From positions 1,674,001-1,738,000 of the forward strand of contig NZ_CP059139.1 of assembly GCF_014109765.1 (NCBI RefSeq): a DNA stretch of 64,000 nt, read 5' to 3'. Under the pieces are notes generated by a model, which was given only the letters and a program-made list of their open reading frames with translations, was not told the DNA's origin and made no database searches. Shown here in pieces: positions 27,271-49,200 of the stretch (position 1 is the first letter of the stretch; every line of letters begins with the position of its first letter). This DNA comes from Pseudomonas berkeleyensis (lineage in GTDB: Bacteria; Pseudomonadota; Gammaproteobacteria; Pseudomonadales; Pseudomonadaceae). The position numbers and the translations under genes were made by a program.

Positions 27271-27411
27271 CTTCATTGACCCTCGAAGGGCGTGGCGGGC
27301 CGTCCCGCCGTCATTCGTCATGTGCCACGGTCGTCCGTGGCGAAAAGTCCGGTGATACGTGTCGCGCGTGCTGGGGACAAATTTTGTAGGGCGGGTGAAA
27401 CCCGCCCTACG

Positions 27412-28047
27412 TCAGTTCCACACCAGCACTTCGGCGGGGGTTGGGTTCCAGCCATTGCACGGGTTGTTCAGTTGCGGGCAGTTGGAGATCAGCACGATGA
27501 CGTCGGTCTCGGCCTTGAGCTCCACGTACTTGCCGGGCGCGGAGATGCCGTCCTCGAAGGTCAGGCCGCCTTCGGGGGTGACTGGCACGTTCATGAAGAA
27601 GTTGATGTTGGCGCCGATGTCACGCTTGCTCAGGCGGCCGTCGTGCAGGCTGGCGCGCAGGAAGTTGTCGCGGCAGCTGTGCATATAGCGCTTGTCCAAG
27701 GCGTAGCGCACGGTGTTGCTCTCCTGCGCGCAGGCGCCGCCGAGGGTGTCGTGGCGACCACAGGTGTCGGCGACGATGGTCAGCAGCGGCTTGCCGAGGT
27801 TGGAGTAGAGCACCGTGCCGGTGGTCAGGTAGACGTTGTTCTGCTTGCGCAGGGTGCGCTGCGGGTCGAAGCGTTCACGTGGGTTGCGTGCGGCGAAGAA
27901 CAGGGTGTCGATCGCCTGGTTGCCTTCGAGGTCGTGCAGGCGCAGGGTCTGCCCAGCCTTGACCTCGAACAGGTAGGGTTCGCCCGCCGGGATGGTATGG
28001 CGGAACACGGCGGTTTCGGGATGCAGGTTGCTGGCGGTAAGGGTCAT
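27412..28047 (-). CDS. Urea amidolyase-associated protein 2 (carboxyguanidine deiminase subunit)
   Basis: The 211-residue protein (start [17 protein letters not shown]) belongs to the UAAP family. Recent work assigned the UAAP pair as the two subunits of carboxyguanidine deiminase, which converts the product of guanidine carboxylase to allophanate and ammonia. Motifs: [36 protein letters not shown] with the Cys and His characteristic of the family, and [19 protein letters not shown]. The frame is open further upstream but overlaps the UAAP1 gene. It begins 11 bp after the UAAP1 stop. Confidence 0.9.
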
Positions 28048-28058
28048 TTCGGCAGCCC

Positions 28059-28787
28059 TCAGATGTACTGGCGTTCGGTGTTGTGGAAACCGCGGCCGTT
28101 CTCCGGACGCGAGGTGCGGCAGAGCACGGTGATGCCGTCGCTGTCGACTTTGCTCCAGCTCAGTTGCACTGGCTTGGGCGCATACTGCGGGTTGGGATCC
28201 ATCGGGTGTTGCAGGGCGGTGAGTACCACCAAGGTGTCCATCGGCGCGTACAGCTCGATGTAGTCGCCGGCCTGGCTGTTGCCGGGCTGGAAGTGGAAGG
28301 CGCCCTCGGCATTGACATCCACGCGGCTGAACAGGTTGAGGTTCATCAGCAGGTCGAGCAGGTTCAGATCCCACTTGCCCATTTCCACCAGCAGGTTGTC
28401 CATGCCGTTGCGGAAGAAGCCGTTGCGCAGTTCCTGATAGCGGCCCTGGCCGTACTTCTCCAATACTTCGTCGGTATTCAGCACGCCGCCGAAGCTGTCG
28501 TGCCAACCGCAGGTGTCGGCGGTGATGGCGGCCAGCACCTTGCCCATGTCCGAGTACAGGCAGTGGCCGGCGGTGAGCTTGGCGGTGTGCTGGCACTTGA
28601 GGGTATCGGGCAGATTCAGGCGCTCGCTTTTCTCAATGGCGTTGAACAGCAGCAGGCTGACGTTGGCGCCGCCTTCGATATCGGTGATGCGCAGCAGCTG
28701 GCCACGCTTGAGGATGAAAGAGGTATGGCCGCCGCCGGGTACGGTTTCTTCGTACAGACTCGGGCGCAGGGTAAGGGCAGTGTTCAT
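28059..28787 (-). CDS. Urea amidolyase-associated protein 1 (carboxyguanidine deiminase subunit)
   Basis: The 242-residue paralogue of the UAAP2 product, with the matching motifs [34 protein letters not shown] and [24 protein letters not shown]1 and UAAP2 act together as carboxyguanidine deiminase. It follows the binding-protein gene by 81 bp and precedes UAAP2, so uptake, carboxylation and deimination are encoded in one direction. It has the normal family length. Confidence 0.9.
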
Positions 28788-28868: not shown

Positions 28869-29936
28869 TCAGAGCTTGCCGTCGACGGCCATTTGCACGT
28901 AGCTCGGGTCGAAGCGCAGCTTGATGTTGGCGCTGTCGCCGGTACTCACGTCGCCGGCGAAGGTCATGCCGATGGCATCGGCGCTGCGCGCACCTTCACC
29001 GAGGATGCCGTGCTCGAAGCTGAAGTTGGCGACCTTGGTCATGGTCTCCGGCAGGGCCGGGCTGGTGATGAAATCCAGAGTTTCCTTCGGCGTGTAGAAC
29101 AGCTTGGTGGTCGCCAGTTGCGACTGGTAGCCGGCCAGGTCGGTGCCGGAGGCCTTGGCCATTTCGGTCAGGGCTTCGGTAGCTGCCGGAGTGCCGGATT
29201 GCATCAGTTCGAGGATTTCGAACCAGGCGCCGACCAGGGCTTTGCCGAAGTCCGGGTTGTCCTTCAGGGTCTGGGTGTTGACCACCATCATGTCGAGGAT
29301 TTCACCGGGGATCTTCGAGGAGTCGAACACCTGGGTGCTGCCGGGCTGGGCGACTATCTCGGCGAGCATCGGGTTCCAGGTCGCAGCGGCCTGCACGCTG
29401 GGGGTGGTATAGGCGGCGATGATGTCGGCATCGGAGGTATTCACCACCGTCACGTCGCGCTCGCTCATGCCAGCGGTTTCCAGGGCGCGGGCGAGGAAGT
29501 AGTGGGACACGGACAGTTCCACCAGGTTGACACGCATGCCCTTGATGTCGGCCAGGGTCTTGCCTTCGCCCTTGATCAGCAGGCCGTCGTTGCCGTTGGA
29601 GTAGTCGCCGACGATCAGCGCGGTGGAGTCAACGCCACCAGCAGCGGGGATGGTCAGGGCGTCCATGTTGGTCATGGTGCAGCCGTCGAATTGACCGACG
29701 CTGTACTGGTTGATCGATTCGACATAGTCGTTGAGCTGCACGACATCGATGCTGATGCCGTATTTCTTCGCCCACTTGTCGATGATGCCGGAGGTGCTGG
29801 CCTGGCCCCAGGGCATCCAGCCGGCGTAGAGCGTCCAGCAGACGCTGAAGCTGTCTTTCTTCTCGGCGTGAGCGCTGAAGCTGAGCACCGCGGCCAGACC
29901 GGCAGCGGCGAAGGAGAGCAGACGGTACTTGCGCAT
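28869..29936 (-). CDS. Periplasmic binding protein of the guanidine-linked ABC transporter, copy 1
   Basis: A 355-residue NMT1/SsuA-like solute-binding protein with a signal peptide (MRKYRLLSFAAAGLAAVLSF). It has WTLYAGWMPWGQASTSGIID and FDGCTMTNMDALTIPAAGG, features of proteins often annotated as urea ABC transporter binding proteins. The guanidine-I riboswitch in its leader makes guanidine or a guanidine derivative the likelier ligand. A TGGAGG site precedes ATG 29936. It is the first gene of the operon with UAAP1, UAAP2 and the carboxylase. A close paralogue lies at 34848-35903. Confidence 0.92.
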   Translation of the reverse strand: MRKYRLLSFAAAGLAAVLSFSAHAEKKDSFSVCWTLYAGWMPWGQASTSGIIDKWAKKYGISIDVVQLNDYVESINQYSVGQFDGCTMTNMDALTIPAAGGVDSTALIVGDYSNGNDGLLIKGEGKTLADIKGMRVNLVELSVSHYFLARALETAGMSERDVTVVNTSDADIIAAYTTPSVQAAATWNPMLAEIVAQPGSTQVFDSSKIPGEILDMMVVNTQTLKDNPDFGKALVGAWFEILELMQSGTPAATEALTEMAKASGTDLAGYQSQLATTKLFYTPKETLDFITSPALPETMTKVANFSFEHGILGEGARSADAIGMTFAGDVSTGDSANIKLRFDPSYVQMAVDGKL

Positions 29937-30003: not shown

Positions 30004-30093
30004 GTTCTCCCGGGCTTTTATCCCGCCGTGTAACCTCACTGGAGGTCGATGACTCTCGGACCAGCACTTGCCTGGCAAGTCGGAACCCTAGCC
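30004..30093 (-). promoter_or_regulatory. Guanidine-I (ykkC) riboswitch, copy a
   Basis: Read on the minus strand: GGCTAGGGTTCCGACTTG, then GGTCCGAGAGTCATCGACCT, then ACACGGCGGGATAAAAGCCC and GGGAGAA. These are the conserved blocks of ykkC subtype 1, in the correct order and spacing (CTAGGGTTCCG, GGTCCGAGAG, ACACGGYGGGAYAAAAGCCCGGGAGA). It lies in the leader of the binding-protein/UAAP/carboxylase operon and should switch it on when guanidine binds. Confidence 0.95.
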
Positions 30094-30161
30094 ATCCATT
30101 TCGCAAATTGTGGTGCCGCGATTCCGGGAAACCCCGGTTAGAACCTGCACACCCAGGCTTT

Positions 30162-30177: not shown

Positions 30178-30369
30178 GCTCGCCGAAGCCCGCGGCTGGG
30201 CGCTCTGGCGATGTTACTTGCGGCTTGCGTGCTGCCTGATGGGGCTGGGCGGGTGCCAATTGCACCGTTCGAGGGCGATTCAGCTTATGGCATCGCCGGG
30301 TGATGGCGCCCCGGCGGTGGCATGGAAATCGCTATCTATCTTCTCGCAGGGGCGACCTCGCTGCCGCCT

Positions 30370-30408
30370 TCGGGACGACCCGACCCGCTGCTCGTCTGGA
30401 CGACCAGG
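30370..30408 (+). promoter_or_regulatory. Guanidine-II (mini-ykkC) riboswitch candidate
   Basis: Two short hairpins have identical ACGA loops: TCGGG-ACGA-CCCGA (30370-30383) and TCTGG-ACGA-CCAGG (30395-30408), separated by 11 nt. Two ACGR-loop hairpins in tandem are the definition of the mini-ykkC/guanidine-II motif. It ends 14 nt before the AAGGGAG ribosome-binding site and 27 nt before the oxygenase start codon, where it could control translation. Confidence 0.85.
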
Positions 30409-30435
30409 TAACTCACTTGTTCAAGGGAGATTGCC

Positions 30436-31461
30436 ATGGTGCATACCCATTTCACGTCCATTCCTCTGATCGATGTTGCCGGTCTTTATGCCGAGAGCCT
30501 CGCCGAACGCCAGCGCGTTGCCGACGAGCTGGGCCGCGCCGCCCGTGAGGTCGGCTTCCTGCAGATTACCGGGCACGGTATTTCACGTGATCTGCGTGAA
30601 GGGCTGATCCACCAGGCGCGCAGTTTCTTCGCCCGTCCATTGGACGAGAAGATGCGTTTCTATATTGGCCAGTCGAGCAACCACAGCGGTTACGTGCCTG
30701 AGGGCGAGGAGCAGTTCGCCGGCGGCAGCAAGGATCTGAAAGAGGCCTACGACGTCAATTACGACTACACCGAGGCGCCTCAGGTCTATCCGCTGCTGGG
30801 CCCGACGCAGTGGCCGGACTCGGCGGACTTCAAGCGCGAGGTGAGCACTTACTATCGGGCGGCGCTGGCTTTGGGCGACACGCTGTTTCGCGGCTTCGCC
30901 CTGGCACTGGGGCTGGCCGAGGACACCTTCGCCGGCATCACCCGGCAGCCCACCAGCCAGTTGCGCATGATCCATTACCCACTCGATCCCGATCCGGTGG
31001 CCGACCGGCCTGGTATTGGCGCGCACACCGACTACGAGTGTTTCACCATCCTCTTGCCCACCGCTGAAGGCTTGCAGGTGCTCAATGGCGACGGGCAGTG
31101 GATCGACGTACCGTTGGTTGAGGACGCCTTCGTGATCAACATCGGCGACATGCTCGAGGTGCTCAGCAACGGCCATTTCGTCGCCACCTCGCACCGCGTA
31201 CGCAAGGTCAGCGAGGAGCGCTTCGCCTTCCCGTTGTTCTGCGCCTGCGACTACCCGACGCGCATCGCGCCGATTGCCGGCCTGCCGCCTCGCGGTGAGC
31301 GTGTGTACGAGCCTGTGAGCTGCGGTGATCACCTGTTCGCGCAGACGGCGCAGACCTTCCGCTATCTGCGTGAGCGTCTGGAGGACGGTTCGCTGCAACT
31401 GCCGGATGGTGCGGCGGGGTTGTCCAGCTTCGGTCAAGGCCGCCGGGAGGTGACGGCATGA
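30436..31461 (+). CDS. 2-oxoglutarate/Fe(II)-dependent oxygenase, guanidine-riboswitch linked
   Basis: A 341-residue isopenicillin-N-synthase-like oxygenase that should hydroxylate a small substrate using Fe(II), oxygen and 2-oxoglutarate. The N-terminal domain has REVGFLQITGHGIS. The iron ligands are H197 and D199 (GAHTDYECF) and H253 (SHRV). R262 in RFAFPLF binds 2-oxoglutarate, with Ala at the position where Ser is usual. AAGGGAG precedes ATG 30436. It is divergent from the guanidine operon and follows a guanidine-II riboswitch candidate, so its substrate is likely a guanidine compound, perhaps a methylated or alkyl guanidine. The next gene overlaps it by ATGA. Confidence 0.92.
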   Translation: MVHTHFTSIPLIDVAGLYAESLAERQRVADELGRAAREVGFLQITGHGISRDLREGLIHQARSFFARPLDEKMRFYIGQSSNHSGYVPEGEEQFAGGSKDLKEAYDVNYDYTEAPQVYPLLGPTQWPDSADFKREVSTYYRAALALGDTLFRGFALALGLAEDTFAGITRQPTSQLRMIHYPLDPDPVADRPGIGAHTDYECFTILLPTAEGLQVLNGDGQWIDVPLVEDAFVINIGDMLEVLSNGHFVATSHRVRKVSEERFAFPLFCACDYPTRIAPIAGLPPRGERVYEPVSCGDHLFAQTAQTFRYLRERLEDGSLQLPDGAAGLSSFGQGRREVTA

Positions 31462-32390
31462 ACCTGCTGGAGCTGGCTGCACGTTACCCGCAGCGCGCCG
31501 AGGGCGGTGTGCCGGACTGGATGCTCGGGCACTTTCGTCGGCGCACCATCAGTTTCGCCGATGGCCGCAGTGACGAGCGTACGCAGGTGCACTGGCTGCA
31601 AAGCCGCGCCTTCACCATCGACCTGCGCCTGCCGGACGCGCCCGCGCTACCGTTGCGCGCCTGGCAGGACTACGACGCCGCTGAGCTGCGCCAGCTCGCC
31701 AACCACGAGGGGTGGATGGCCGACAGCGTCTGGGAGAACGGCTATCTGAGCTGGCACGGCGGCGTCTCCTTGCAATTGCACAACCGCTGGCCGGAACCGG
31801 CACAGTTGCAGCGCATCGGCAATTGCATGATCGAGTTCGGCACCACGGGCGCCTATGTCGAGGACTGGCGTTTGCAGGCCAGCAGCGGGCCGCTGATCGG
31901 TCTGCGTTTGCTGGAGGAGTGCGACGCCGAAACTGGCGAGGTGCTGCAGCGCGGCGGTGGCCTGATTCTCTGCGGTGAGCAGCTTGGCTGGGTGCACGGG
32001 CGGCGTGAGGAGCCAGGTGAATCACCCCTGCAACTGCGTGAGCGCGCCGAGCGGGCGCAGGGTGATGGTGAAGCGTTGGCACCGTTGTTCGACTGCGAAA
32101 CCTCGCTGGCCTATGCCGATGGGCAGGGGCGTTATCAGGTGGCGCTTTCCACCTTGCCGGCACGAGTGGGACAGATGGTTTCGCTGGAGGGCTTCGAGCT
32201 GCCTGGTGCGGGTCGTGTCTGTCAGCACCTGCAGCGACCGGACGGGCGCGCGGTGGTGCGTACCTTCATCATCGATACGCTGGAGCCGGGCTGGCGCGCG
32301 GAGCTCGCCACGCCGACTACCGACGAGGCGCAGCGCTGGTTCGCTGCGGAGGGGGAAACGCTGTCGCGCTATCTTGAGGTGTTGAGCTAG
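31458..32390 (+). CDS. Unrecognised protein coupled to the guanidine-linked oxygenase
   Basis: A 310-residue soluble protein without signal peptide. It starts MNLLELAARYPQRAEGGVPD and continues WMLGHFRRRTISFADGRSDE and TQVHWLQSRAFTIDLRLPDA. This part, and the section YLSWHGGVSLQLHNRWPEPA, are beta-rich, and the layout faintly recalls lipocalin-like Hri1-type folds, which is a weak idea only. Its start overlaps the oxygenase stop (ATGA), so the two are translated together. It could be a second enzyme, or a binding or chaperone partner. No family is recognised. Confidence 0.8.
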   Translation: MNLLELAARYPQRAEGGVPDWMLGHFRRRTISFADGRSDERTQVHWLQSRAFTIDLRLPDAPALPLRAWQDYDAAELRQLANHEGWMADSVWENGYLSWHGGVSLQLHNRWPEPAQLQRIGNCMIEFGTTGAYVEDWRLQASSGPLIGLRLLEECDAETGEVLQRGGGLILCGEQLGWVHGRREEPGESPLQLRERAERAQGDGEALAPLFDCETSLAYADGQGRYQVALSTLPARVGQMVSLEGFELPGAGRVCQHLQRPDGRAVVRTFIIDTLEPGWRAELATPTTDEAQRWFAAEGETLSRYLEVLS

Positions 32391-32708
32391 TAGAGGCTGC
32401 GCCTCCCTGGCCGGAGGCGCAGTCGGTGCGCATGGCGCACCCTACGGGTTATCGCACGACTTGCGCTGCGTAGGGTGCGCTGTGCGCACCGAGCTGGTGG
32501 CTCCGTAGCCCGGATGCAATCCGGGGGAAATGTGTTGGTGATCCCCGGATTTCATCCGCGCTACAACCTGTCGAGCGTTGCGATCAGTCGACAGCAATTT
32601 AGTCACGGTGCTGTCACGGCAGAGGCGGTGCGCATGGCGCACCCTACGGGTTATCGCGCGGTTTGCGCTGCGTAGGGTGCGCTGTGCGCACCGAAACAAC
32701 CGCTGTAA
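32391..32708. repeat. Nested palindromic repeat cluster
   Basis: No gene. Two nearly identical 66-bp elements (32425-32490 and 32627-32692) are each an inverted pair of GGTGCGC-A/T-GGCGCACCCTACG and its complement. Between them lies a 60-bp GTAGCCCGGAT palindrome (32505-32564). The region separates the convergent oxygenase operon and the ABC ATPase gene and may act as a bidirectional terminator. Confidence 0.85.
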
Positions 32709-33569
32709 TCAACGGGCGGCGATGCGCTCGGCCAACTCGTCAGGCAATTGTGTTTGCGCCCGACGCGTCTCGTTCAGCGGGATGTCGTAGGTGATGCGTG
32801 CGCCGTAGGCGTTGGGCGCCTGCGGGTCATGGCGCACCTTGTCGAATACCAGCAGGCGAGTGCCGAGGCTGAAGCCTTCCGACAGGTCGTGGGTGACCAT
32901 GAATACCGTCAGACGGGTCTCCTGCCACAGCTCCAGCAGCAGCGCGTGCATGTCCTTGCGGATACCGGGGTCGAGGGCGCCGAAAGGCTCGTCGAGCAGC
33001 AGCATGCGCGGCTGCATCACCAGTGCCTGGGCGATGGCCAGGCGTTGCTGCATGCCACCGGAGAGCGCGCTGGGGTATTTATTCAGCGCGTGGCCGAGGC
33101 CGACCTTGGTGAGGATTTCAGCGGCACGCTCGCGGGCTTCGCGCTTGGCGGCGCCGAACAGGCGGCCAAGCAGTTTTGATCTCGGCAGCTCCAGGCCCAG
33201 GGCGACGTTGTCGAGCACGCTCAGGTGAGGGAATACCGAGTAGCGCTGGAACACCACGCCCCGGCTCGGATCAGGTTCGCTAGGCAGCGCCTGGCCGCCC
33301 AGCAACAGCTCGCCCCGGCTCGGACGCTCCTGGCCAAGCAGCATGCGCAGGAAAGTGGATTTGCCGCAGCCGGATGCACCCACCAGGGTGCAGAATTCAC
33401 CTTCGTCGACCTTCAGGTTGAGGCGTTCCAGCACGACCAGGTCGCCGTATTCCTGCCACAGGTTACGCGCCTCGATAAAGGCAGCTTGCGCTGGGTTGGC
33501 AGGGGCAGTGCCGGAGTCGCTCATGGCAGGTTCACTCAACGGGACGATATGTTGGCTGAGCAGGCTCAT
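32709..33569 (-). CDS. ABC transporter ATPase of the guanidine-linked uptake system
   Basis: A 286-residue SsuB/TauB-type ATPase. Walker A is GASGCGKST, the Q-loop is in VVFQRYSVFPHLSV, the signature is LSGGMQQRLAIAQAL and Walker B is MLLLDEPFGALD, with the H-loop in VTHDLSEG. Its start overlaps the permease stop (ATGA), so the two are translationally coupled. With the permease and one of the two binding proteins it makes a complete importer, presumably for guanidine or a derivative. Confidence 0.93.
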   Translation of the reverse strand: MSLLSQHIVPLSEPAMSDSGTAPANPAQAAFIEARNLWQEYGDLVVLERLNLKVDEGEFCTLVGASGCGKSTFLRMLLGQERPSRGELLLGGQALPSEPDPSRGVVFQRYSVFPHLSVLDNVALGLELPRSKLLGRLFGAAKREARERAAEILTKVGLGHALNKYPSALSGGMQQRLAIAQALVMQPRMLLLDEPFGALDPGIRKDMHALLLELWQETRLTVFMVTHDLSEGFSLGTRLLVFDKVRHDPQAPNAYGARITYDIPLNETRRAQTQLPDELAERIAAR

Positions 33570-34381
33570 GCCTTACCTCCTTCATGCCAGGGGAAGCACA
33601 GGCGCAGTACCTGACGCAGACCAAAATCCATCAGCCAGGCCAGCAGGGTGATCCAGATGACGTAGGGCAGGATCACGTCCATGGCCATGTAGCGGCGCAC
33701 CAGGAAAATGCGGTAACCGAGGCCGTCGGTACTGGCGATGGCCTCGGCGGCGATCAGGAACAACCAGGCCGAGCCGAGCATCAGGCGCAGCGAGATCAGC
33801 AGGCGTGGCATCAGTTGCGGCAGCACCAGGCGCAGGATCAGCGTCCAGGTGTTGGCACCCAGGGTCTGTGCCTTGATCAGCAGTTCACTGGGAATTTCGC
33901 GGGCGCGCTGTTCGATGTCGCGGGCGATGCAGGGGGTGATGCCGATGACGATCAGCATCACCTTGGACAATTCGCCGAGGCCGAAGACGATGAACAGAAT
34001 CGGCAGGATCGCCAGCGGTGGAATCATCGACAGCACCGTGAGCAGTGGCGACAGCGGCGCGCCGAACAGTGGAATGCTGCCGGCGGCGATGCCCAGCACC
34101 AGGCCCAGTATTGCCGCGATGCCGAGACCCAGTCCCAGGCGCTGCAGACTGGAGGTGGTGTCCTGCCAGAACAGGTATTGGCCGCTGCGCTTGTCTTCGC
34201 TGAAGGCCAGGCGATCGACGGCGTCGATCATCTGGCTGGCGCTGGGCAGCAGCTTGTCATTGGGGTTCTCGGCCAGGCGGGTAGCCGAGGCGCTGAAGTA
34301 GACGAACAACAGCAGGGCGAAGGGCAGCAGGATCAGCAGCAGGCGGCCGCTGCGATCGGGGTGGCGGTTGATCAGGCGCAT
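33566..34381 (-). CDS. ABC transporter permease of the guanidine-linked uptake system
   Basis: A 271-residue inner-membrane permease of the SsuC/TauC type with about six transmembrane helices. The first is RLLLILLPFALLLFVYFSAS. The EAA loop that contacts the ATPase is ELLIKAQTLGANTWTLILR. It is the first gene after riboswitch b, about 185 bp downstream, and overlaps the ATPase gene by 4 bp. It lies downstream of the second binding-protein gene in the same direction, but with its own promoter and riboswitch. Confidence 0.93.
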   Translation of the reverse strand: MRLINRHPDRSGRLLLILLPFALLLFVYFSASATRLAENPNDKLLPSASQMIDAVDRLAFSEDKRSGQYLFWQDTTSSLQRLGLGLGIAAILGLVLGIAAGSIPLFGAPLSPLLTVLSMIPPLAILPILFIVFGLGELSKVMLIVIGITPCIARDIEQRAREIPSELLIKAQTLGANTWTLILRLVLPQLMPRLLISLRLMLGSAWLFLIAAEAIASTDGLGYRIFLVRRYMAMDVILPYVIWITLLAWLMDFGLRQVLRLCFPWHEGGKA

Positions 34382-34565: not shown

Positions 34566-34658
34566 GTTCTCCCGGGCTTTTGTCCCGCCGTGTAACCTCG
34601 CTGGAGGTCGCTAGCTCTCGGACCAGTCGCTCGCCTGTGGCGAGCCGGAACCCTAGCC
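34566..34658 (-). promoter_or_regulatory. Guanidine-I (ykkC) riboswitch, copy b
   Basis: On the minus strand: GGCTAGGGTTCCGGCTCGCC, then GGTCCGAGAGCTAGCGACCT, then ACACGGCGGGACAAAAGCCC and GGGAGAA. All conserved ykkC blocks are present. It lies inside the gene cluster, between the second binding-protein gene and the permease, and should give the permease-ATPase pair its own guanidine control. Confidence 0.95.
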
Positions 34659-34723
34659 GGCTATTGGCAAATTGTGGTGCCGCGATCCCGGCAAGCCGGG
34701 TTGTTCCTGCACAACCTGTTCTT

Positions 34724-34847: not shown

Positions 34848-35903
34848 TCAGAGCTTGCCGTCTGCGGCCAACTGCATGTAGTCGTGATCGAAACGCAGCA
34901 GGATGCGCTGCGCATTGCCCAGGGTCTGCTCGCCGCTGAACGCGATGCCCAGGTTGCTCAGACCCTGGCCGCTCTGGCCCAACAGGCCGTGGGCGTCGGC
35001 GAAACGGGCGACGCGCTGCATCAGATCTGGCAGTTTGCCGGTACGGGTGAAGTTCAGCGCGGTGCGTGGCGAGTAGAACGAACGCAGGGTGCTGAGTTGC
35101 GCGTCGAAGTCCTCGGCGCTGGTCTCGGCGGCAACGGCCATCTTCGTCCTGGCTGCGCGTCCGGCTGCCGTGGGCAGGCCCAGCAGACGCTGGGTTTCGA
35201 ACCAGGCACCGGTCAGTGCACGGCCGAACTCCGGGTGCTGCGCCAGGGTCTGGCTGTCGACCACGGTCAGGTCGAGAATCTCGCCCGGAATCAGGTTGGA
35301 GGTGAACACCTGGCTGACCTCGGCCTTGCGCCGAATCTCGGCGAGGATCGGGTTCCAGGTGATCACGGCATCGCCCTGGCCGGCGAGGAAGGCGTCGGCG
35401 ATTTCGCTGTCGGAGACGTGCTGGATGGTCACGTCGCTTTCCTCCAGCCGCGCCCATTCCAGCGCGCGGCTGAGCAGGTAATGAGAAACCGAGTTCTCCA
35501 CCAGCAGCACGGTCTTGCCCTTGAGATCCTGTATGCGCTTGCCCGTGCCACGCAGCAGTACGCCATCGGCGCCGTTGGAGAAGTCGCCGATGATCAGCGC
35601 GGTACTGTCCTTGCCGGCGGCAGCAGGAATGGTCAGGGCGTCCATGTTGGTCATGGTGCAGGCATCGAACTGGCCGGCGGTGTACTGCTCGATGGAGCCG
35701 ACATAATCCGGCACCTGCTGCACCTGGATGTCGATGCCGTATTTGTCCGCCCACTTCTTCACGATGCCCTGTTCAGCAGCGTAGCCCCAGGGCATCCAGC
35801 CGGCGAAGATCGACCAGCACAACTTGAAGGATTTCGGCGCGGCCTGGGCCGTCGGGGCGCCGAGCAGGCAGGCGCAGAGCAGGGCGGTAAGCAGAGAACG
35901 CAT
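34848..35903 (-). CDS. Periplasmic binding protein of the guanidine-linked ABC transporter, copy 2
   Basis: A 351-residue paralogue of the binding protein at 28869-29936; both share AGWMPWG, QFD-CTMTNMDALTIPAA and DSTALI-GD-SNG. The signal peptide is MRSLLTALLCACLLGAPTAQ. I chose ATG 35903 since GAGG lies 8 nt upstream; an in-frame ATG two codons earlier is too close to it. It has its own riboswitch (c) and precedes the permease-ATPase pair. Having two binding proteins suggests either two related ligands or recent duplication. Confidence 0.92.
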   Translation of the reverse strand: MRSLLTALLCACLLGAPTAQAAPKSFKLCWSIFAGWMPWGYAAEQGIVKKWADKYGIDIQVQQVPDYVGSIEQYTAGQFDACTMTNMDALTIPAAAGKDSTALIIGDFSNGADGVLLRGTGKRIQDLKGKTVLLVENSVSHYLLSRALEWARLEESDVTIQHVSDSEIADAFLAGQGDAVITWNPILAEIRRKAEVSQVFTSNLIPGEILDLTVVDSQTLAQHPEFGRALTGAWFETQRLLGLPTAAGRAARTKMAVAAETSAEDFDAQLSTLRSFYSPRTALNFTRTGKLPDLMQRVARFADAHGLLGQSGQGLSNLGIAFSGEQTLGNAQRILLRFDHDYMQLAADGKL

Positions 35904-35956
35904 GGGCATGACCTCGAGTAATCAACGGAATGGGAAAGCGGGCAGCCGTGCTGCGC

Positions 35957-36068
35957 GTTCTCCCGGGCTTTTATCCCGCCGTGTAACCCCTCGGCTTCCC
36001 GCCGCTGCATGAGGTCGCCCACTCTCGGACCAGCCACTCGCCTTGCGGCGAGCCGGAACCCTAGTCGG
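35957..36068 (-). promoter_or_regulatory. Guanidine-I (ykkC) riboswitch, copy c
   Basis: On the minus strand: GACTAGGGTTCCGGCTCGCC, then GGTCCGAGAGTGGGCGACCT, a longer variable arm (CATGCAGCGGCGGGAAGCCG) and then ACACGGCGGGATAAAAGCCC with GGGAGAA. The conserved blocks equal copies a and b; only the peripheral hairpin is longer. Confidence 0.94.
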
Positions 36069-36129
36069 CCATTGCGATTCGCTACCACCTGCGATCCGTC
36101 GTGCGGATCGGCTTTCCGCTGCGGCTGCA

Positions 36130-40075: not shown

Positions 40076-40783
40076 ATGTTTCGAGGTTGCGCAGGCGCAG
40101 GTCGATGGGGGCGGGGCCGGCGCAAGTCGTTCCTGGCTGCGCCGTTGCTGCTGATTTTGCTTGCCGGTGTGCTGCACGCGGACTGGGATTTCAATCTGAT
40201 CAGCCAGCGTGCCGAGAAGCTCTACGGGCCTCTCGGCGACGGCAAGGCGCGCATCGATGAATGGCAGGCGCTGCTGGAGCGCCTACCAGAGCTGGACGAG
40301 CCGGCACAGCTGGAAGCGGTTAACCGCTTCTTCAATGCCAGCCTGCGTTTTCGTGATGACATCGAGATCTGGCAGCAGAACGACTACTGGGCGACCCCGG
40401 TCGAGGCCCTGCGTAAGGGTGCGGCGGACTGCGAAGATTTCGCCATCGCCAAGTACTTCACCCTGCGCGAAGCGGGCGTGGCCAGCGAAAAGCTGCGCAT
40501 CACCTACGTCAAGGCACTTCGCCTGAATCAGGCGCACATGGTGCTGACCTACTACGCCACACCGGACGCCATGCCGCTGGTGCTGGATAACCTGATCAAT
40601 GTCATTCGCCCCGCCAGTGAGCGCTCTGATCTGTTGCCGGTCTACGCCTTCAACGCCGAGGGGCTGTGGCTCGCTGGCAAGGGGGGCGGCAAGCAGGTGG
40701 GAGACGCCAAGCGCCTGTCGCGTTGGCAGGAATTGTTGAAGAAGATGGCCGCCGAGGGATTCCCGGTGGAGCCGGGTCGATAG
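40076..40783 (+). CDS. lapG: Periplasmic cysteine protease LapG
   Basis: LapG cleaves the N-terminus of the LapA adhesin and frees it from the cell surface. The 235-residue bacterial transglutaminase-like protease has a membrane/signal segment (SFLAAPLLLILLAGVLHADW), catalytic Cys in GAADCEDFAIAKYF, His in NQAHMVLTYY and Asp in VLDNL. ATG 40076 is chosen over a TTG two codons earlier. It is 8 bp before lapD. Its target site, TAAG, is in the LapA of this window. Confidence 0.94.
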   Translation: MFRGCAGAGRWGRGRRKSFLAAPLLLILLAGVLHADWDFNLISQRAEKLYGPLGDGKARIDEWQALLERLPELDEPAQLEAVNRFFNASLRFRDDIEIWQQNDYWATPVEALRKGAADCEDFAIAKYFTLREAGVASEKLRITYVKALRLNQAHMVLTYYATPDAMPLVLDNLINVIRPASERSDLLPVYAFNAEGLWLAGKGGGKQVGDAKRLSRWQELLKKMAAEGFPVEPGR

Positions 40784-40791
40784 GAGTCGAG

Positions 40792-42759
40792 ATGTCGCTG
40801 TTCAAACAATTGCTGATTGCCATCTGCCTGTTCCTGGTGGTCGCCTTCACCGGTAGCTTCATGGTCGGCCTGGAAAGCTCCCGCGAGCAGTACGTCAACC
40901 AGTTGCGTTCGCATGCGCAGGACGCCGCGACCGCGCTGGGTTTGTCGCTGACGCCGCACGTGGACGACCCGGCGATGATGGAGCTGATGGTCAGCTCGAT
41001 CTTCGACAGCGGTTATTTCCAGAGCATCCGGGTGATCGACATCGCCAGCGGCAACACGCTGGTCGAGCGCAGCGGCGTGCCTGACGCCGCCGATATCGAA
41101 GCGCCGCAGTGGTTCGTCGACCTGATTGGCCTGCAACCCGAGGTCGGCGATGCCCTCGTCAGTCGTGGTTGGGAGCAGGCGGCGCGGGTGGAGGTGCAGA
41201 GCCATCCGATGTTCGCCATCGCCCGTCTATGGCGCAGCGCCCTTGGTAGCCTTGGCTGGCTGTTGCTGTGTGGCCTGCTCAGTGCCGGGGTTGGCGCCTT
41301 CGTCCTGCGTCGCCAGCTCAAGCCGCTGGATTACATGGTCGAACAATCCCACGCGATTGCCCGCCGCGAATTCCTCAGCCTGCCGATGCTGCCACGCACT
41401 CCCGAACTGCGCCGGGTGGTAGAGGCGATGAATCAGATGGTGGAGAAGCTCAAGGCGCTGTTCCAGGAGCAGGCCGAGCGCAGCGAACGGCTGCGTGACG
41501 AGGCCTACAAGGACAGCCTGACCGGGCTGGCCAACCGTCGCTATTTCGAGATGCAGCTGCAGGTGCGCCTGGGGGCCGAAGACCAGGCCAACGTGGGTTA
41601 CCTGCTGATGATCCGGGTGCGTGACCTGGCCGGGCTCAACCAGCGCCTGGGCGGTCAGCGTACCGATCAGTTGTTGCTGGCGGTGGCCGACCTGCTGTCG
41701 CGCGAAGGCGCAACGCTGGGCGCCGGTTGCCTGGTGGCCCGCAGCCGTGGCGGTGATTTCGCGCTGCTGGCGCCGGGCCTGGTCGCCGAGGAGGGCGAGC
41801 AGTTGGCCATGCGTCTGGAGACAGCGTTTGCCAGCCTGGCCATGACCTGCGGCAGTGACCTGACGCCGATGGCGCATATCGGTCTGGCGCCGTTCCGGCC
41901 CGGTGACGAATGTGGCGAGTTGCTGCGCTTGGTCGACGAGGCGCTGGCCAGGGCCGAAGGCCTGAGCGAGCAGTGTTGGGCCCTGGCTTCGCGCGATGAT
42001 ATCGCCAGTGTCGGTGATGAGCGCCATGTCTGGCGCTCGCTGCTGGATCAGGCCTTGAGCCGGCGTCAGATCGAGCTGTATTTCCAGCCGGTGGTCAGTG
42101 CCCGCGATCCCGGCCAGGTGTTGCACTACAAGGTGCTGTCACGCATTCGCGACGAGCTGGGGGCGACTATTCCTGCCGGACGTTTCCTGCCCTGGTTGCA
42201 GCGCTTTGGTTGGTCGTCGCGCCTCGATCTGCTGATGCTGGAGGCGGTGTTGCAGCACCTGGCTGGCCATGCACAGTCGCTGGCACTGAACCTCTCCGGC
42301 GCGCTGCTGCGCGAACCCAAGGCTCTGGAGAAGGTTTTCGAACTGCTCAAACGGCATGCCGAGTTCGCACCGCGTCTGGTGCTGGAGCTGGAGGAGGATC
42401 AGTTACCGGAACAGGCTGCCCTGGAGCAACTGACCCGACGACTGCGCAGCCTGGGGTTCAGCCTCAGCCTGCAGCATTTCGGTGGTCGCTTCAGCATGAT
42501 CGGCAACCTGGCTCGCCTCGGTCTGGCCTATCTGAAGGTCGATGGCAGCTATATCCGCGCCATCGATCAGGAGGCTGACAAGCGCCTGTTCATCGACGCC
42601 ATGCAGCGCGCCGCGCACAGCATCGATCTGCCCCTGATCGCCGAGCGTGTGGAAACCGAGGGGGAGTTGCAGGTACTGCGGGAAATGGGGATTCAGGGTG
42701 TGCAGGGCCAACTGATCGGTGCGCCGATGCCGTGGCCGCCGACATCCCCTGTGGCCTGA
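40792..42759 (+). CDS. lapD: c-di-GMP receptor LapD
   Basis: LapD senses c-di-GMP in the cytoplasm and then sequesters LapG in the periplasm, which keeps LapA on the surface. The 655-residue protein has TM1 at 7-26, a periplasmic domain to about 145, TM2 at about 148-170, a HAMP-type segment, and GGDEF and EAL domains that are both degenerate: RGGDF stands in place of GGDEF, and KVL (HYKVLSRI) in place of EAL. Such receptors bind but do not turn over the nucleotide. ATG 40792 follows AGGAG; the frame is open upstream only as an overlap of lapG. Confidence 0.95.
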   Translation: MSLFKQLLIAICLFLVVAFTGSFMVGLESSREQYVNQLRSHAQDAATALGLSLTPHVDDPAMMELMVSSIFDSGYFQSIRVIDIASGNTLVERSGVPDAADIEAPQWFVDLIGLQPEVGDALVSRGWEQAARVEVQSHPMFAIARLWRSALGSLGWLLLCGLLSAGVGAFVLRRQLKPLDYMVEQSHAIARREFLSLPMLPRTPELRRVVEAMNQMVEKLKALFQEQAERSERLRDEAYKDSLTGLANRRYFEMQLQVRLGAEDQANVGYLLMIRVRDLAGLNQRLGGQRTDQLLLAVADLLSREGATLGAGCLVARSRGGDFALLAPGLVAEEGEQLAMRLETAFASLAMTCGSDLTPMAHIGLAPFRPGDECGELLRLVDEALARAEGLSEQCWALASRDDIASVGDERHVWRSLLDQALSRRQIELYFQPVVSARDPGQVLHYKVLSRIRDELGATIPAGRFLPWLQRFGWSSRLDLLMLEAVLQHLAGHAQSLALNLSGALLREPKALEKVFELLKRHAEFAPRLVLELEEDQLPEQAALEQLTRRLRSLGFSLSLQHFGGRFSMIGNLARLGLAYLKVDGSYIRAIDQEADKRLFIDAMQRAAHSIDLPLIAERVETEGELQVLREMGIQGVQGQLIGAPMPWPPTSPVA

Positions 42760-43273: not shown

Positions 43274-46200
43274 TCAGTGGTGCTCGGTCTTCACCAGCGG
43301 GTCGGCACCGGCCACCAGCGAGTTGACGATCTGCGAGGAGGTGGAACCGTACTGACTCAGGTTCACGCCTTCCAGCTTGATGGTCACATCGACGTGGTTG
43401 GCCACGTCACCGGTGGTGCTGACCTGCAGCGTGTTGGTGGTTGTATCGACCTTGAGGTAATCGAGGAGGTTGTTGGCATTGGCGGTATCGGGCAGCAATT
43501 CGCTGAGGTCGATACGGTCGCCATCGGCCGCATTGAAGTCCTTGATCACATCATTGCCGAAGTCACCAGACTTCCACATGAAGGTATCGGCACCTGCTCC
43601 CCCGATCAGGGTGTCGTTGCCGACCCCGCCGATCAGCAGGTCGTTGCCGTCACCGCCATTGAGCAGGTCGTGTCCACCGTTGCCGTAGAGCACATCGTGG
43701 CCGTTGCCGCCATTGAGAATGTCGGAGTACTTGCTGCCGTTGATCAGGTCGCTGGCTTCGCTGCCGTTGGTGGTGCCGATGGTGTGCAGCGCCCAGCCGG
43801 TGTCGGTCTGCACCAGTTCCTGGCCGTTGCCCGGCGCCTGGAAGATATCCAGACCGCTGCCGGGGGCGCCCAGAACCTTGTAGCTGGAGTCCGCACTGCC
43901 GCTGAGCTTGAACTCCACCTTCAGGCTGGCTGCACCACCCTGATCCCAATACAGCAATTCCAGCGCCTGCAGGTCGCCACTGAGGCCAACGCCGCTGAAC
44001 ACCTTGGTGGTGGTGCTCTGGATGTAGTTGGCCTCGGCCACTACCTGGCCACCGATCATCAGACGGTAGCCATCATCTGCGGTGACGCGGATGTCGTAGG
44101 TACCGCCCTGAACCAGGTCGAGGAAACCGTGGGCGCGGATGATCGCGTCCGAGGTGTCGCCCAGCCCTGCGCCACCGGCCTTGAGGTCGGAGACGTTGCC
44201 GGTACCGGCTGCCGTGAGGAAGTCGTACAGGTTGTTCTGGATTGTGGTGGTAGTGTTGCCGATGCTGTTGCCACTGCTCACGCTGCGGTTGTCGCCCAGG
44301 TCATCGCTGAACACCGTGTTGCCGTTCTTCAGACCGTAGTCGATCTGGTTGGCGACGAAGGTGGCGTTGACCGACGAAGCCGCCGCGTTGTCGTTGGAAC
44401 CGACCAGGCTGGTGCTGTTGCCGCTGCGCGACTCGATGTAGTCCTCCACCAGCTTGAGGCTGGTGAGGTTAGGTCGCGTGCTGCCGCTCTCGGCATAGCC
44501 CCAGTACTCGCCAGTCAGGCCCGAGGACAGCGGCGTGCTGGTATCGGCCACGGTGATGGTGTTGCTGGTCAGGCTGTCATGGCTGACACCGCCCTCGACG
44601 ATTTTCAGCGTCAGGTGCTGGCTGGCGCTGTTGGCCGTGCTGCCGTTGGGTTCGACCGATACGGCCTTGATGTCCAGGCCGATCTCGCCGCGTACGGCAC
44701 CACTGACCTGCAGTTTGGCGTCGGCCAGTTGCGCCGCCGTCAGGGAGACCACGCCATTGACTGCCGCCAGGGTGCTGTTGCCGACCACGATGCTGGCGCC
44801 GGCAGGCAGACTGGAAAGGTCGTAGCGCAGGCTCTCGGAACCGTCGGTGTCGGTCAGCGCGCCGCTGATGTAGTTGGCCAGGGCGATGCTGGTCTTGCCG
44901 CTGACACCGCCATCACCGGCCACCACGCCCTGGGACGAGGAGAGGGTGATGTTGTCGATCAGCGCACCACGGCCAGACGCGTCGGTGGAGCTGCCGGCCA
45001 ACTTGATGATCAGGGCTTCGTTCTTGCCGGTGCCGACGAAGCTGAAGTGGATGTTCTCCCAGTTCAGGCTGGTCTGGCTGCTGGTGGAGCCGTATTCACC
45101 TACAAGGGTGCTGCCCAGATAGACCGCGATCTTGGTGAAGGTGGTGTCGAAGCCCAGGCGGCCGGCATAGTCCATGGACAGGTCGTAGACCTTGCCAACC
45201 TCGGTGGTGACGTTGCGGGTGATGCCCAGGGTCTGGGACATGCTGCCGCCGGCGTCGTTGAGCTCCAGCGCGTCATTGTTGCCGGTACCCGGCAGCTTGA
45301 CGGTGATCATGTCGCCAGCCTGGTTCTCCATCCGGTCGTTGTTGGCCCAGACCTCGAACACGTTGGTGCCGCCACCGCGCTTGTCGCCGCTGGTGACCAG
45401 GGTCCAGTTCTCGAAGGTCGGCCCGGCGACATCCTGCGAGGTGTTGTCGCTGTTCGGCGCCGATTCCCAGGTGGTGGTGAACAGCTTGCTGGCCGCTGCC
45501 GACTTGACGCTGAGCGTCGGCCCGTCGGCGACCGGCGTGATGTCGATGCTCATGGTGCTGCTGGCAGTCGTCAGGGTGCCGTCGCTGCCGCTGTACTTGA
45601 ACTCGGCGTAGGTCTGCTTGTTCATCCCCACGCCGTTGCTGCTGAAGCTGTCATGCCCGGATTCGTTGGCATCCGGCACGAAGCGCAGGCCACCGGCGTC
45701 GATCACCGATTTGCCGACCGTGGTGTTGGGGGTGACGTTGCTCCAGTTGCCATTGACCAGTTGCTGCAGCCTGCCTTCACCCGGCAGGTTCTCGATCTTG
45801 ATCGAGAGGTTGCTGTTGGCGTCGACGTCGCTGACCCGGAAGTCGCTCCAGGCGAAGACATAGTTGTTGTCTTCGGTGCCGGTCACGTTGGCACCGGAGA
45901 CGACCGCCGGGGCCTCGTTGACGTTATTGACCTGGATGGTGAACGTCTGGGTCGCGGTGCTGCCGTCGGAGCTGGTGGCCCTGACCACGATGTCATGGCT
46001 GGTGGCGCTCTCGTAGTCGAGTTTGCTGCCATCGGCCACGCTGACCACGCCGCTGGTGGCGTTGATGGTGAAGCGGCCGCCGGCGTTGTCGATCAGTTCG
46101 TACAGGGTAACGGTTGCGCCAGCATCGCCATCCACACCGCGTACGGTCAGGCCTACGGTGGTGCCAGTGGCGGCATTCTCATTGACCTGGTTGGCGGCGC

Positions 46201-49200
46201 TGTTGGTGTCGCTGATGACCACACCGTTGTCGTTGACGTTGCTCAGGTTGATGGTGAACACCTGGGTGCTGCTGCTGCCATCGGAGCTGGTTGCCTTGAC
46301 CGTGATGTTGTGGCTGCGGGCGCTCTCGTAGTCGAGCTTGCTGCCATCGGCCACGGTCACCTCGCCCGTGCTGGCGTTGATCGCGAAGCGGCCGCCGGCA
46401 TTGTCGGTCAGCTCGTACTGGGTGACGGTGGCGCCAGCGTCAGCATCGGTGCCCTGAACAGTGAGGCCGACGGTGGTGCCGTTGGCTGCGTTCTCGGCGA
46501 CGGTGTTGGCCGCCGGGTTGGCGTCGGTGATGACCACACCGTTGTCGTTGACGTTGCTCAGGTTGATGGTGAACACCTGGGTGTTGCTGCTGCCATCGGA
46601 GCTGGTCACCTTGACGGTGATGTTGTGGCTGGTGGCGTTCTCGTAGTCGAGCTTGCTGCCATCGGCCACGGTCACCACGCCCGTGCTGGCGTTGATCGCG
46701 AAGCGGCCGCCGGCGTTGTCGGTGAGCTCGTACTGGGTGATGCTCGCGCCGACGTCGCCGTCTCTACCCAGTACGGTGAGGCCGACGCTGGTGCCGTTGG
46801 CGGCATTCTCGGCGACGGTGTTGGCCGCTGAGTCGCTGTCGCTGATGACCACGCCGTTGTCATTGACGTTAGTGACGTTGATGGTCACGGTCGCCGTCGC
46901 CGGGGTCTTGCCGTCGGTGGCGGTAACCTGCAACTGGTGCTGGGTGGCGGTCTCGTAGTCCAGAGACTTGCCGCTGGCCAGGGTGATGACGCCAGTGCTC
47001 GAGTTGATCGCGAACAGGCCGGCGTCGTTGCCGCCGGTAATGCTGTAGAAAAGCGGCTCGCCGTCGCGATCCTGGTCGGTACCGGTGAAGCGGTCGTTGA
47101 GGTTGGCGATGGTGCTGCCGGAGGCGATGTTCTCGGCGAAGCTGACGGTGGTATTGGACAGACCCGGGGCATCATCCACGGCCGCGACCTGGATGATCAT
47201 GGTGTTCGGCGTGGTGGAGAAGGCGCCGCTCTGATCCTGAACCGAGAAGCTGAAGCTGCTGTTGCCACTGGCATTGGCCGCCGGGGTGTAGACCAGGGAA
47301 GCGATCTGCGCCGCGGTGATGATCATGCCGATGGTCACGGCTTCGTTACCCAGGCTCAGGTTGCCACTGGCCGGTAGGCTGTTGATGCGAATGGCCTTGA
47401 GGCTGTCGCCTGCATCGACATCATTGAAGGTGAAGTCAGCGCTGGTGAAGCTGCGCGACGTGTCTTCATCAGTCGTGACGGTGTTATCTGCACTGGTCGG
47501 TGCATCGTTGATGGCGTGCACGGTCACCGGCAGGTTGAGGCTGGTGCTGGCATGGTCGCCGTTGGCGCCCTCGGTGGCGGTTGCGGTGATCTTCAGATCA
47601 AAGGTGCCGTTGTAGTTGGCGGGCGGGGTGATGCTCAGGTTGCCCAGGTTCCAACTGCTGATGTCGGTCGAGGTGGCGCCTGTCGTTGCAGTGAAACTGT
47701 GAACGCCATCGCTAAGGGTCGCGCCTTGCGGAATCTGCGAAATCGAGATCGCGAGACTCTCGGAGCCATCTGTATCGTTCAGCGACGCTGTCAGGTGCGA
47801 CAGAGGAATGCTGCTGTCCTCGGCGCCTTCGTTGTAGCCATAGACCTGGTAGTAGCCCTTGCCATCGCTACCGTGCAGTTCCGATACGCGCACGCCATCC
47901 TGGTTCAGGTCACTGGTGTTGCGGTAGAGCAATGCGTTGGCAGTGGAAAGATCCTGCACCGCCCCGTTGCCAACCTTGACGTTGACGTCCAGGTTACCCG
48001 GGCCGCTCTGGTTGTGCTGGTAGATGTCCAGGGTGTAGTAGCCGCTCTGCTGGGCAGTGAAGCTGCCGCTGAACTGACCGCTGTTGCCGCTCCAGGTGGC
48101 GCTGGCCACGGTGGTGCCGCCCACGGCGACCAGTACGCTGTCGTCACCCACACCGCTGAAGGTGTAGGTCTCGCCAGCTTGCAGGTAGATCAGCCCGGAG
48201 AACTTGTTGGCCACACCGGCATTGACGTTGTCCAGATGGGCATCGTTAGCATTGGTGCTGCTGGCTGGGGTACCAGCGGCATCGATGGTGGCTTTCAGTG
48301 TAGTGGGGGCTGCGCCGTTGCCGCTGTTACCCAGGGCGAGGCCGTTCCAGCTCTGCAGGGTCAGGCCGGTGGCGTGCGGGGTGCCTGCCGGGGTCTGGGC
48401 ACTGAGGTTCGGTGCGTCGGCCACCGCCTGGATAGACACCTGTACGGTGGCGCTGCTGTTGCCGCCTTTGCCATCGGTGATGGAGTAGCTGATGGTGTCC
48501 GCACCGCTGTAGTTGCCGGTGGGGGTGTACACCAGCTTGCCATCGACGACGCTGACTGTGCCGTGCTGCGCGCTGGCACCGGTGATGCTCAACGTATCGC
48601 CGTCGATGTCGTGGTCATTGGCCAGAACATCGATGGTGACTGAGGTGTCTTCACGGGTGGTCGTGCTGTCGTCGCTAGCGGCCGGGGCATCATTGACTGG
48701 ATTGACGGTGATGCTCACCAGGGTATCGGTGACACCACCTTTGCCGTCGCTGACGGTGACCACGAAACTGTCCTGCCCGTTGTAGTCGCCGTTGGGTTTG
48801 TAGGTGTACTCACCCGTATTCGGGTTGAGTACCAGAGTGCCATTGGAAGTGCCGGTCTTGATCGCGTAGGTGAGACTGTCGCCCTCGGCGTCGGTGGCCT
48901 GAATGCTGCTATTCAGGGTGCCATCCTCGTTTACCGAGACACTGCTGTTCGGCGCGATGGGGGCATCGTTGATGGCATTGACGATGACGCTGACCAGGCT
49001 GGTAGTGGTGCCGCCGTTGCCATCATCGATAGTGACGGTGAAGGAGTCGGTGCCGTGGAAGTCCTTGGCCGGCTGGTAGGTGTAGGTACCGTTGGCATTC
49101 ATCACCACGGTGCCATGCTGCGGGCCGTTGCCGTTGGCGATGCTGTAGGTCAGGGTGTCGCCGTCGACATCACGAGCGCTCACGCGGCCGTCGACCGGCG

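Follow-up and report, generated by a model that had tools for sequence, protein, structure and literature searches.

We analysed a 64,000-nucleotide (nt) stretch of Pseudomonas berkeleyensis DNA (contig NZ_CP059139.1, positions 1,674,001 to 1,738,000; hereafter the window), which carries a guanidine-use cluster at 23.6-36.1 kb; four riboswitches in it, three guanidine-I and one guanidine-II, exceed the Rfam cut-offs. A whole-genome riboswitch search returned the same four sites and none additional. The minus strand of the cluster encodes two TIGR03427 substrate-binding proteins, a permease, an ATPase, two DUF1989 proteins, and a urea-carboxylase-family enzyme, the predicted guanidine carboxylase (gca). 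On the plus strand, a 2-oxoglutarate (2OG)/Fe(II) oxygenase gene and the gene of a 310-residue protein share an ATGA stop/start overlap and diverge from a minus-strand operon headed by a guanidine-I riboswitch (RF00442, 87.9 bits, 30005-30102). A preliminary description of the window had reported both the divergent arrangement and the overlap with an unrecognised protein, and both were borne out, the 310-residue protein having no Pfam or NCBIfam match at E ≤ 0.001. The nearest named relatives of the locus are Pseudomonas chengduensis, P. sediminis, and P. alcaliphila. We propose that the pair is very probably a methylguanidine demethylase operon with its own guanidine-II-type leader, which would supply guanidine to the neighbouring carboxylase pathway.

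The 341-residue oxygenase matched the Pfam models DIOX_N and 2OG-FeII_Oxy. Four of its residues were invariant in 108/108 relatives, namely H197, D199, and H253, which we take from their superfamily roles to be the metal ligands, and R262, presumably 2OG binding. BLASTP determined 56% identity over 334 residues to MgdH of Vreelandella boliviensis. The latter is reported to be a methylguanidine hydroxylase, and its partner MgdL to split N-(hydroxymethyl)guanidine, for which D49 and R51 are required (Sinn et al. 2025, PMC12508155). A halomonad locus (L175, genome G868) was identified as the source of this characterised pair, because it carries the four published primer ends with no mismatch and encodes a lyase that matches a protein named Vreelandella boliviensis at 100% identity. 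A quick tree of 63 rows placed characterised and window-type MgdHs together in one group, separate from three outgroup oxygenases (Shimodaira-Hasegawa-like approximate likelihood ratio test, 97), and the MgdHs partnered by the characterised lyase branch (branch B, see below) formed one clade (100). The preliminary description had suggested that, if guanidine turns the pair on, the oxygenase probably consumes a guanidine derivative, for example by dealkylating methylguanidine to guanidine, and the identity to a biochemically proven hydroxylase supports that reaction; its remark that the pair had no described role is outdated, as the chemistry was published in October 2025 (PMC12508155). Searched for on plasmids, MgdH had no match reaching 60% identity among 114 records. 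Five halomonad MgdH relatives, 52-54% identical to that of the window, have no recognisable adjoining lyase gene (L181, L183, L184, L185, and L186); they too fell inside the MgdH group of the tree.

The best PDB sequence match of the window MgdH was 9ovh (E 2e-47), labelled an ethylene/succinate-forming enzyme. The ethylene-forming enzyme and related guanidine-releasing 2OG oxygenases belong to the same superfamily as MgdH but are described as releasing guanidine from arginine or homoarginine, and we know of no such lyase partner for them. An arginine or homoarginine hydroxylase identity was retained only as a rival because of the 56% identity to MgdH. More broadly, the window oxygenase might release guanidine from some other guanidino compound (N,N-dimethylguanidine, a longer alkylguanidine, arginine, or homoarginine), given that 44% of the aligned residues differ from characterised MgdH and that related enzymes, including plant homoarginine hydroxylases, free guanidine from amino acids. 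Furthermore, V. boliviensis MgdH is reported to accept N,N-dimethylguanidine too (PMC12508155). The dedicated lyase-like partner alongside the oxygenase, however, makes another substrate improbable, and methylguanidine is preferred.

The preliminary description had not read the second protein as a lyase of the hydroxymethyl intermediate. The window partner showed no BLASTP match to the characterised 250-residue MgdL at E ≤ 1e-3; direct transfer of the MgdL name was therefore rejected, and we call the protein a member of a sister branch, branch A. Support for its predicted activity thus comes from profile homology and a pair of conserved residues. Profile comparison with hhalign gave 97.9% probability (E 3.9e-13, 186 columns) between the partner and MgdL and placed D49/R51 of MgdL opposite D55/R57 of the partner. 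A third branch of about 256 residues linked branches A and B (E 6.3e-44 and 1.8e-31, respectively). D55/R57 occurred in 85/85 branch-A sequences covering these positions (one of 86 was cut short), and D49/R51 in 22/22 branch-B sequences. Database searches matched 672 proteins for the window partner versus 48 for the published MgdL, and none of the 48 published-branch identifiers was among the matches listed (the best 120 of 672 and the best 120 of 1,273), so the window partner belongs to a larger branch. Published-branch members with a genus name came from Vreelandella, Halomonas, Billgrantia, and Salinisphaera.

The V. boliviensis lyase was absent from a contig scan and from those same listed matches, and two order-wide genome searches showed, in the family of V. 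boliviensis, nothing beyond a third-branch relative (G367). The lyase was located via ectoine synthase, an EctB match to PDB 6rl5, which we take to be from a halomonad, and then a family-wide MgdH search. The third-branch relative (L131, 713-3471) is a 258-residue protein whose gene has an ATGA overlap with that of a 2OG oxygenase 39% identical to MgdH and is followed by an ABC (ATP-binding cassette) transporter ATPase gene (PotA-like reading). Judged from these sequences, this is perhaps another oxygenase-lyase pair with a different substrate.

Models of the two lyases were examined for a beta-barrel fold. The branch-A model was poor (predicted local distance difference test, pLDDT, 60.6). 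That of the characterised branch B (pLDDT 87.2) was rich in beta structure and had weak matches to calycin-like folds; neither lyase model had a match at E ≤ 0.001 in fold searches. A sequence search of the PDB with branch A returned nothing at E ≤ 10. A report of branch-A activity was not found in the literature searched, limited to open-licence PubMed Central (PMC) papers. The V. boliviensis study collected 216 MgdL homologues at ≥30% identity, which may include branch A, and likened MgdL to another enzyme, one that accelerates the breakdown of a hydroxylated N-C intermediate and with which it is stated to share no sequence homology (PMC12508155). The missing BLASTP match, the length of 310 versus 250 residues, the lack of a curated family, and two branch-A loci with no mgdH nearby would all suit a partner that is not the lyase of the methylguanidine hydroxylase MgdH, but instead handles formaldehyde, binds substrate, or splits a different hydroxylated intermediate. 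Against this stand the profile homology, in which the catalytic D and R line up, the unbroken conservation of D55/R57, and the fact that both lyase branches hold the same position next to mgdH; such a partner is hence unlikely, though less so than another substrate for the oxygenase, and a lyase remains the preferred assignment.

This gene order was examined among relatives. MgdH was encoded beside the partner at 75/78 branch-A loci (partial in two, L039 and L106); the three loci lacking an MgdH match were L077, L083, and L085, of which L083 is cut by a contig end. L077 and L085 have a branch-A lyase gene and no MgdH match in the fetched locus. In L039 (9609-10930), from a metagenome-assembled genome, the mgdH frame is 131 residues long and matches 30% of the query, while the lyase gene is intact and the hairpins described below still lie upstream. 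A strong MgdH match was present at 28 halomonad loci, of which 23 had a branch-B lyase and five did not; gca lay within the 1.5-kb flank at 19/28, and tandem ACGR-loop hairpins within 400 nt upstream of mgdH were found at 0/28 (L187 has an incomplete start). In most of these halomonads, mgdHL, the oxygenase-lyase gene pair, thus sits next to gca, whereas in the window and at most branch-A loci it has a leader to itself. The V. boliviensis and window loci are alike in having a 2OG/Fe(II) oxygenase gene directly followed by a lyase-like gene at a guanidine carboxylase locus with guanidine riboswitches, and in the aligned D-x-R pair; they differ in that mgdHL of V. boliviensis is placed after gca in a single operon, with a guanidine-II element 5′ of gca, whereas window mgdHL is divergent with a guanidine-II-type leader of its own. 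Separately, a TIGR03427-like gene follows mgdL on the same strand at 29/78 loci (e.g., L053, L057, and L069), some of them without gca, and its product, 52-63% identical to that of the window, may be a methylguanidine-binding protein.

Two tandem hairpins with ACGR loops, as in guanidine-II riboswitches, were found in the leader of window mgdH: P1 (TCGGG-ACGA-CCCGA) and P2 (GTCTGG-ACGA-CCAGGT) are separated by a 10-nt linker, and a Shine-Dalgarno-like AAGGGAG (30423-30429) lies between P2 and the ATG (30436). Both ACGA-loop hairpins had been noticed in the preliminary description, which placed them 27 nt before the oxygenase start; the distance is 26 nt. To survey other leaders, we took the window plus 74 loci whose mgdH start was usable, and looked within 450 nt upstream of mgdH for pairs of ACGR hairpins having stems of 4 base pairs (bp) or more and a linker of 4-45 nt. 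Such pairs occurred in 61/75 leaders versus 7/7,500 dinucleotide shuffles, and in 5/5,000 shuffles of the window's 450-nt leader alone, so the arrangement is not a chance one. In six further leaders the linker was longer or a stem had only 3 bp (L043, L048, L052, L054, L080, and L088), and eight of the 75 had no ACGR hairpin pair (L072, L086, L091, L093, L101, L102, L103, and L105). Hairpins and loops were retained across Gammaproteobacteria, Betaproteobacteria, and Acidobacteriota, with variable linkers and flanks.

The preliminary description had proposed a guanidine-II covariance model as a check, with the lack of a hit, together with a lack of guanidine binding, as grounds for refutation. 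The Rfam guanidine-II (mini-ykkC) model RF01068 scored the window leader at 16.7 and 13.2 bits, below its gathering score of 32, aligning the genuine hairpins singly, one per match; among five other mgdHL leaders tried, one passed the cut-off (L099). The leader resembles RF01068 elements in having two ACGR-loop hairpins shortly 5′ of the ribosome-binding site of a guanidine gene and differs in its short linker and sub-cut-off score. An independent covariance model was then built from 22 mgdHL leaders that excluded the window's clade and were selected for possessing both hairpins. In the 64-kb window its top match was the mgdHL leader (33.5 bits, E 4e-6), and the guanidine-II site that Rfam accepts scored lower (17.2 bits). 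Among 30 further loci, 10/10 close relatives matched at the leader, and 0/20 other loci, comprising 11 halomonad loci and nine picked mostly for missing hairpins, matched at E ≤ 0.01. Because the independent model finds the site, the Rfam cut-off was dropped as a verdict on the leader; refutation by the lack of a covariance-model hit would have misfired using that cut-off. The claim of a guanidine-II-type leader was thus supported by comparison of sequences, through the conserved hairpins and the independent model.

A reading in which the two hairpins are a decayed relic or some other regulatory element, not a guanidine sensor, would fit the Rfam score, the hairpin-less leaders, and an ordinary folding energy (z −0.52, with 63/200 shuffles at least as stable). 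It is very improbable, because the hairpins and loops are kept across three major lineages while linkers and flanks vary, and because the independent model matches the window site. In the hairpin-less alphaproteobacterial leaders of Caulobacteraceae type (L101, L102, L103, and L105), 4/4 scanned carried two ATTAC-N15-GTAATA/GTAACA dyads instead, about 50 and 204 nt before the start, and L072 had one similar dyad at −372; these are probably operators of a regulator that replaces the riboswitch.

We next considered how a guanidine-II-type leader might act. In the minimum-energy fold, the P2 3′ arm and the bases following it (about 30403-30418) paired with the Shine-Dalgarno stretch and the start region (about 30424-30442), which excludes P2. 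In a set of 28 distinct leaders drawn from 65, the P2 arm was more complementary to its own Shine-Dalgarno region (mean score 13.1) than to those of other leaders (11.1), and the observed sum was reached in 0/20,000 permutations, kinship being uncorrected; L090 was dropped from this test as it had no recognised Shine-Dalgarno stretch, and L088 was scored zero. Together, complementarity and fold give moderate support to putative translational control by the leader, the window's own group being a weak case. The guanidine-II RNA of V. boliviensis is reported to bind guanidine and methylguanidine alike, and its guanidine-I RNA guanidine only (PMC12508155). If this pattern is valid here, methylguanidine itself could start mgdHL expression.

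The claim that guanidine feeds the adjoining carboxylase was supported by the gene content of the genome, in which gca, the DUF1989 pair, guanidine riboswitches, and an allophanate hydrolase gene (825 bits, cut-off 511; G000:C1:862115-863785) were all present. Given the allophanate hydrolase, predicted genes exist for every step from methylguanidine to ammonia. Of the 78 branch-A loci, 46 had no gca in the flank, and a gca-like gene lay elsewhere in 24/24 genomes tested from these. In a sample of the window's genus, a gca-like gene was found in 6/6 mgdHL genomes (G000, G063, G078, G107, G113, and G147) versus 78/143 others (hypergeometric 0.03, kinship not corrected). Co-occurrence of mgdHL with gca is only suggestive, however, because the genus base rate is already 84/149 genomes, a count that includes 54-55% relatives.

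In the mechanism we favour, guanidine or methylguanidine would bind both ACGA-loop hairpins, and the ligand would hold P2 together, freeing the ribosome-binding site that is otherwise paired with the P2 3′ arm. MgdH, with Fe(II), O2, and 2OG, would then hydroxylate the methyl group of methylguanidine, the lyase would release guanidine, and Gca, the DUF1989 pair, and allophanate hydrolase would convert guanidine to ammonia and CO2. For the V. boliviensis relatives, the hydroxylase and lyase reactions, the D49/R51 requirement, and binding of both ligands by the guanidine-II RNA are published (PMC12508155); the corresponding activities of the window proteins and leader we infer from sequence. Several observations weigh against this reading: the allophanate hydrolase gene is unlinked to the window locus, the partner lacks a BLASTP match to MgdL and has a poor structure model, and the leader combines a sub-cut-off Rfam score with an ordinary folding energy. 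Likewise, some mgdH leaders have no hairpins, and the window's own group (L029) was weak in the complementarity test, with 19/27 foreign regions scoring equal or better. The coordinates of the features are collected in Table 1.

Table 1. Genes and RNA elements of the guanidine-use cluster (window coordinates)
Feature	Position	Strand	Basis
mgdH, 2OG/Fe(II) oxygenase, predicted methylguanidine hydroxylase, 341 residues	30436..31461	+	Pfam; 56% identity to V. boliviensis MgdH
Branch-A MgdL-like protein, predicted N-(hydroxymethyl)guanidine lyase, 310 residues, D55/R57	31458..32390	+	Profile homology, conserved residues
P1 hairpin, ACGA loop 30375-30378	30370..30383	+	Sequence; leader model match 30368-30410
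P2 hairpin, ACGA loop 30400-30403	30394..30409	+	Sequence; leader model
Predicted alternative (OFF) hairpin, excludes P2	30403..30442	+	Minimum-energy fold of 30360-30450; complementarity across leaders
Guanidine-I riboswitch heading divergent operon	30005..30102	-	Rfam RF00442, 87.9 bits
ABC transporter substrate-binding protein (TIGR03427)	28869..29936	-	NCBIfam match
DUF1989 protein, predicted carboxyguanidine hydrolase subunit	28059..28787	-	
DUF1989 protein, predicted carboxyguanidine hydrolase subunit	27412..28047	-	
Guanidine-II riboswitch preceding carboxylase gene	27295..27342	-	Rfam RF01068, 46.1 bits
gca, urea-carboxylase-family enzyme, predicted guanidine carboxylase, 1230 residues	23578..27270	-	TIGR02712, 1879 bits
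ABC transporter ATPase	32709..33569	-	
ABC transporter permease	33566..34381	-	
Guanidine-I riboswitch preceding permease-ATPase pair	34567..34667	-	Rfam RF00442, 93.4 bits
Second TIGR03427 substrate-binding protein	34848..35909	-	
Guanidine-I riboswitch preceding second substrate-binding protein	35958..36075	-	Rfam RF00442, 85.2 bits

A promoter scan found nothing. Just 3′ of the 310-residue protein gene lie two 77-nt palindromic intergenic copies that are 92% identical (32416-32492 and 32618-32694), with a third inverted repeat near them at 32505-32564. Elsewhere in the window, a 4,926-residue cadherin/immunoglobulin-repeat protein with RTX repeats near its end (43274-58054, minus strand) is encoded close to a gene with LapD/MoxY, HAMP, GGDEF, and EAL domains (40666-42759, plus strand); they are probably a large surface adhesin and its cyclic di-GMP receptor.

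Taken together, the arrangement first described is real and its function largely known, and what appears to be new is the sister lyase branch, the wider distribution, and the dedicated guanidine-II-type leader. A broader proposal, to which we give an even chance, is that the 310-residue protein is a predicted member of a hemiaminal lyase superfamily that has three or more branches. The published MgdL would be a minor, halophile-restricted offshoot of it and branch A the widespread methylguanidine lyase (Pseudomonadota, Campylobacterota, Myxococcota, and Acidobacteriota, in part represented by metagenome-assembled genomes alone), with the other branches serving other oxygenases. Under the same proposal, a methylguanidine-accepting guanidine-II leader would allow the substrate to induce mgdHL separately from the carboxylase operon, whose guanidine-I control responds to guanidine only. 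The present comparison extends the MgdH/MgdL system, placed by its discoverers in Vreelandella and Salinisphaera, to Pseudomonas and several phyla, with a second enzyme that comes in branches BLASTP does not connect. Most such operons seen carry a guanidine-II-type leader, which the Rfam cut-off missed in the window and in 4/5 others scanned. Methylguanidine use may be common and not a halophile speciality, and a family of enzymes splitting hydroxymethyl intermediates becomes testable.
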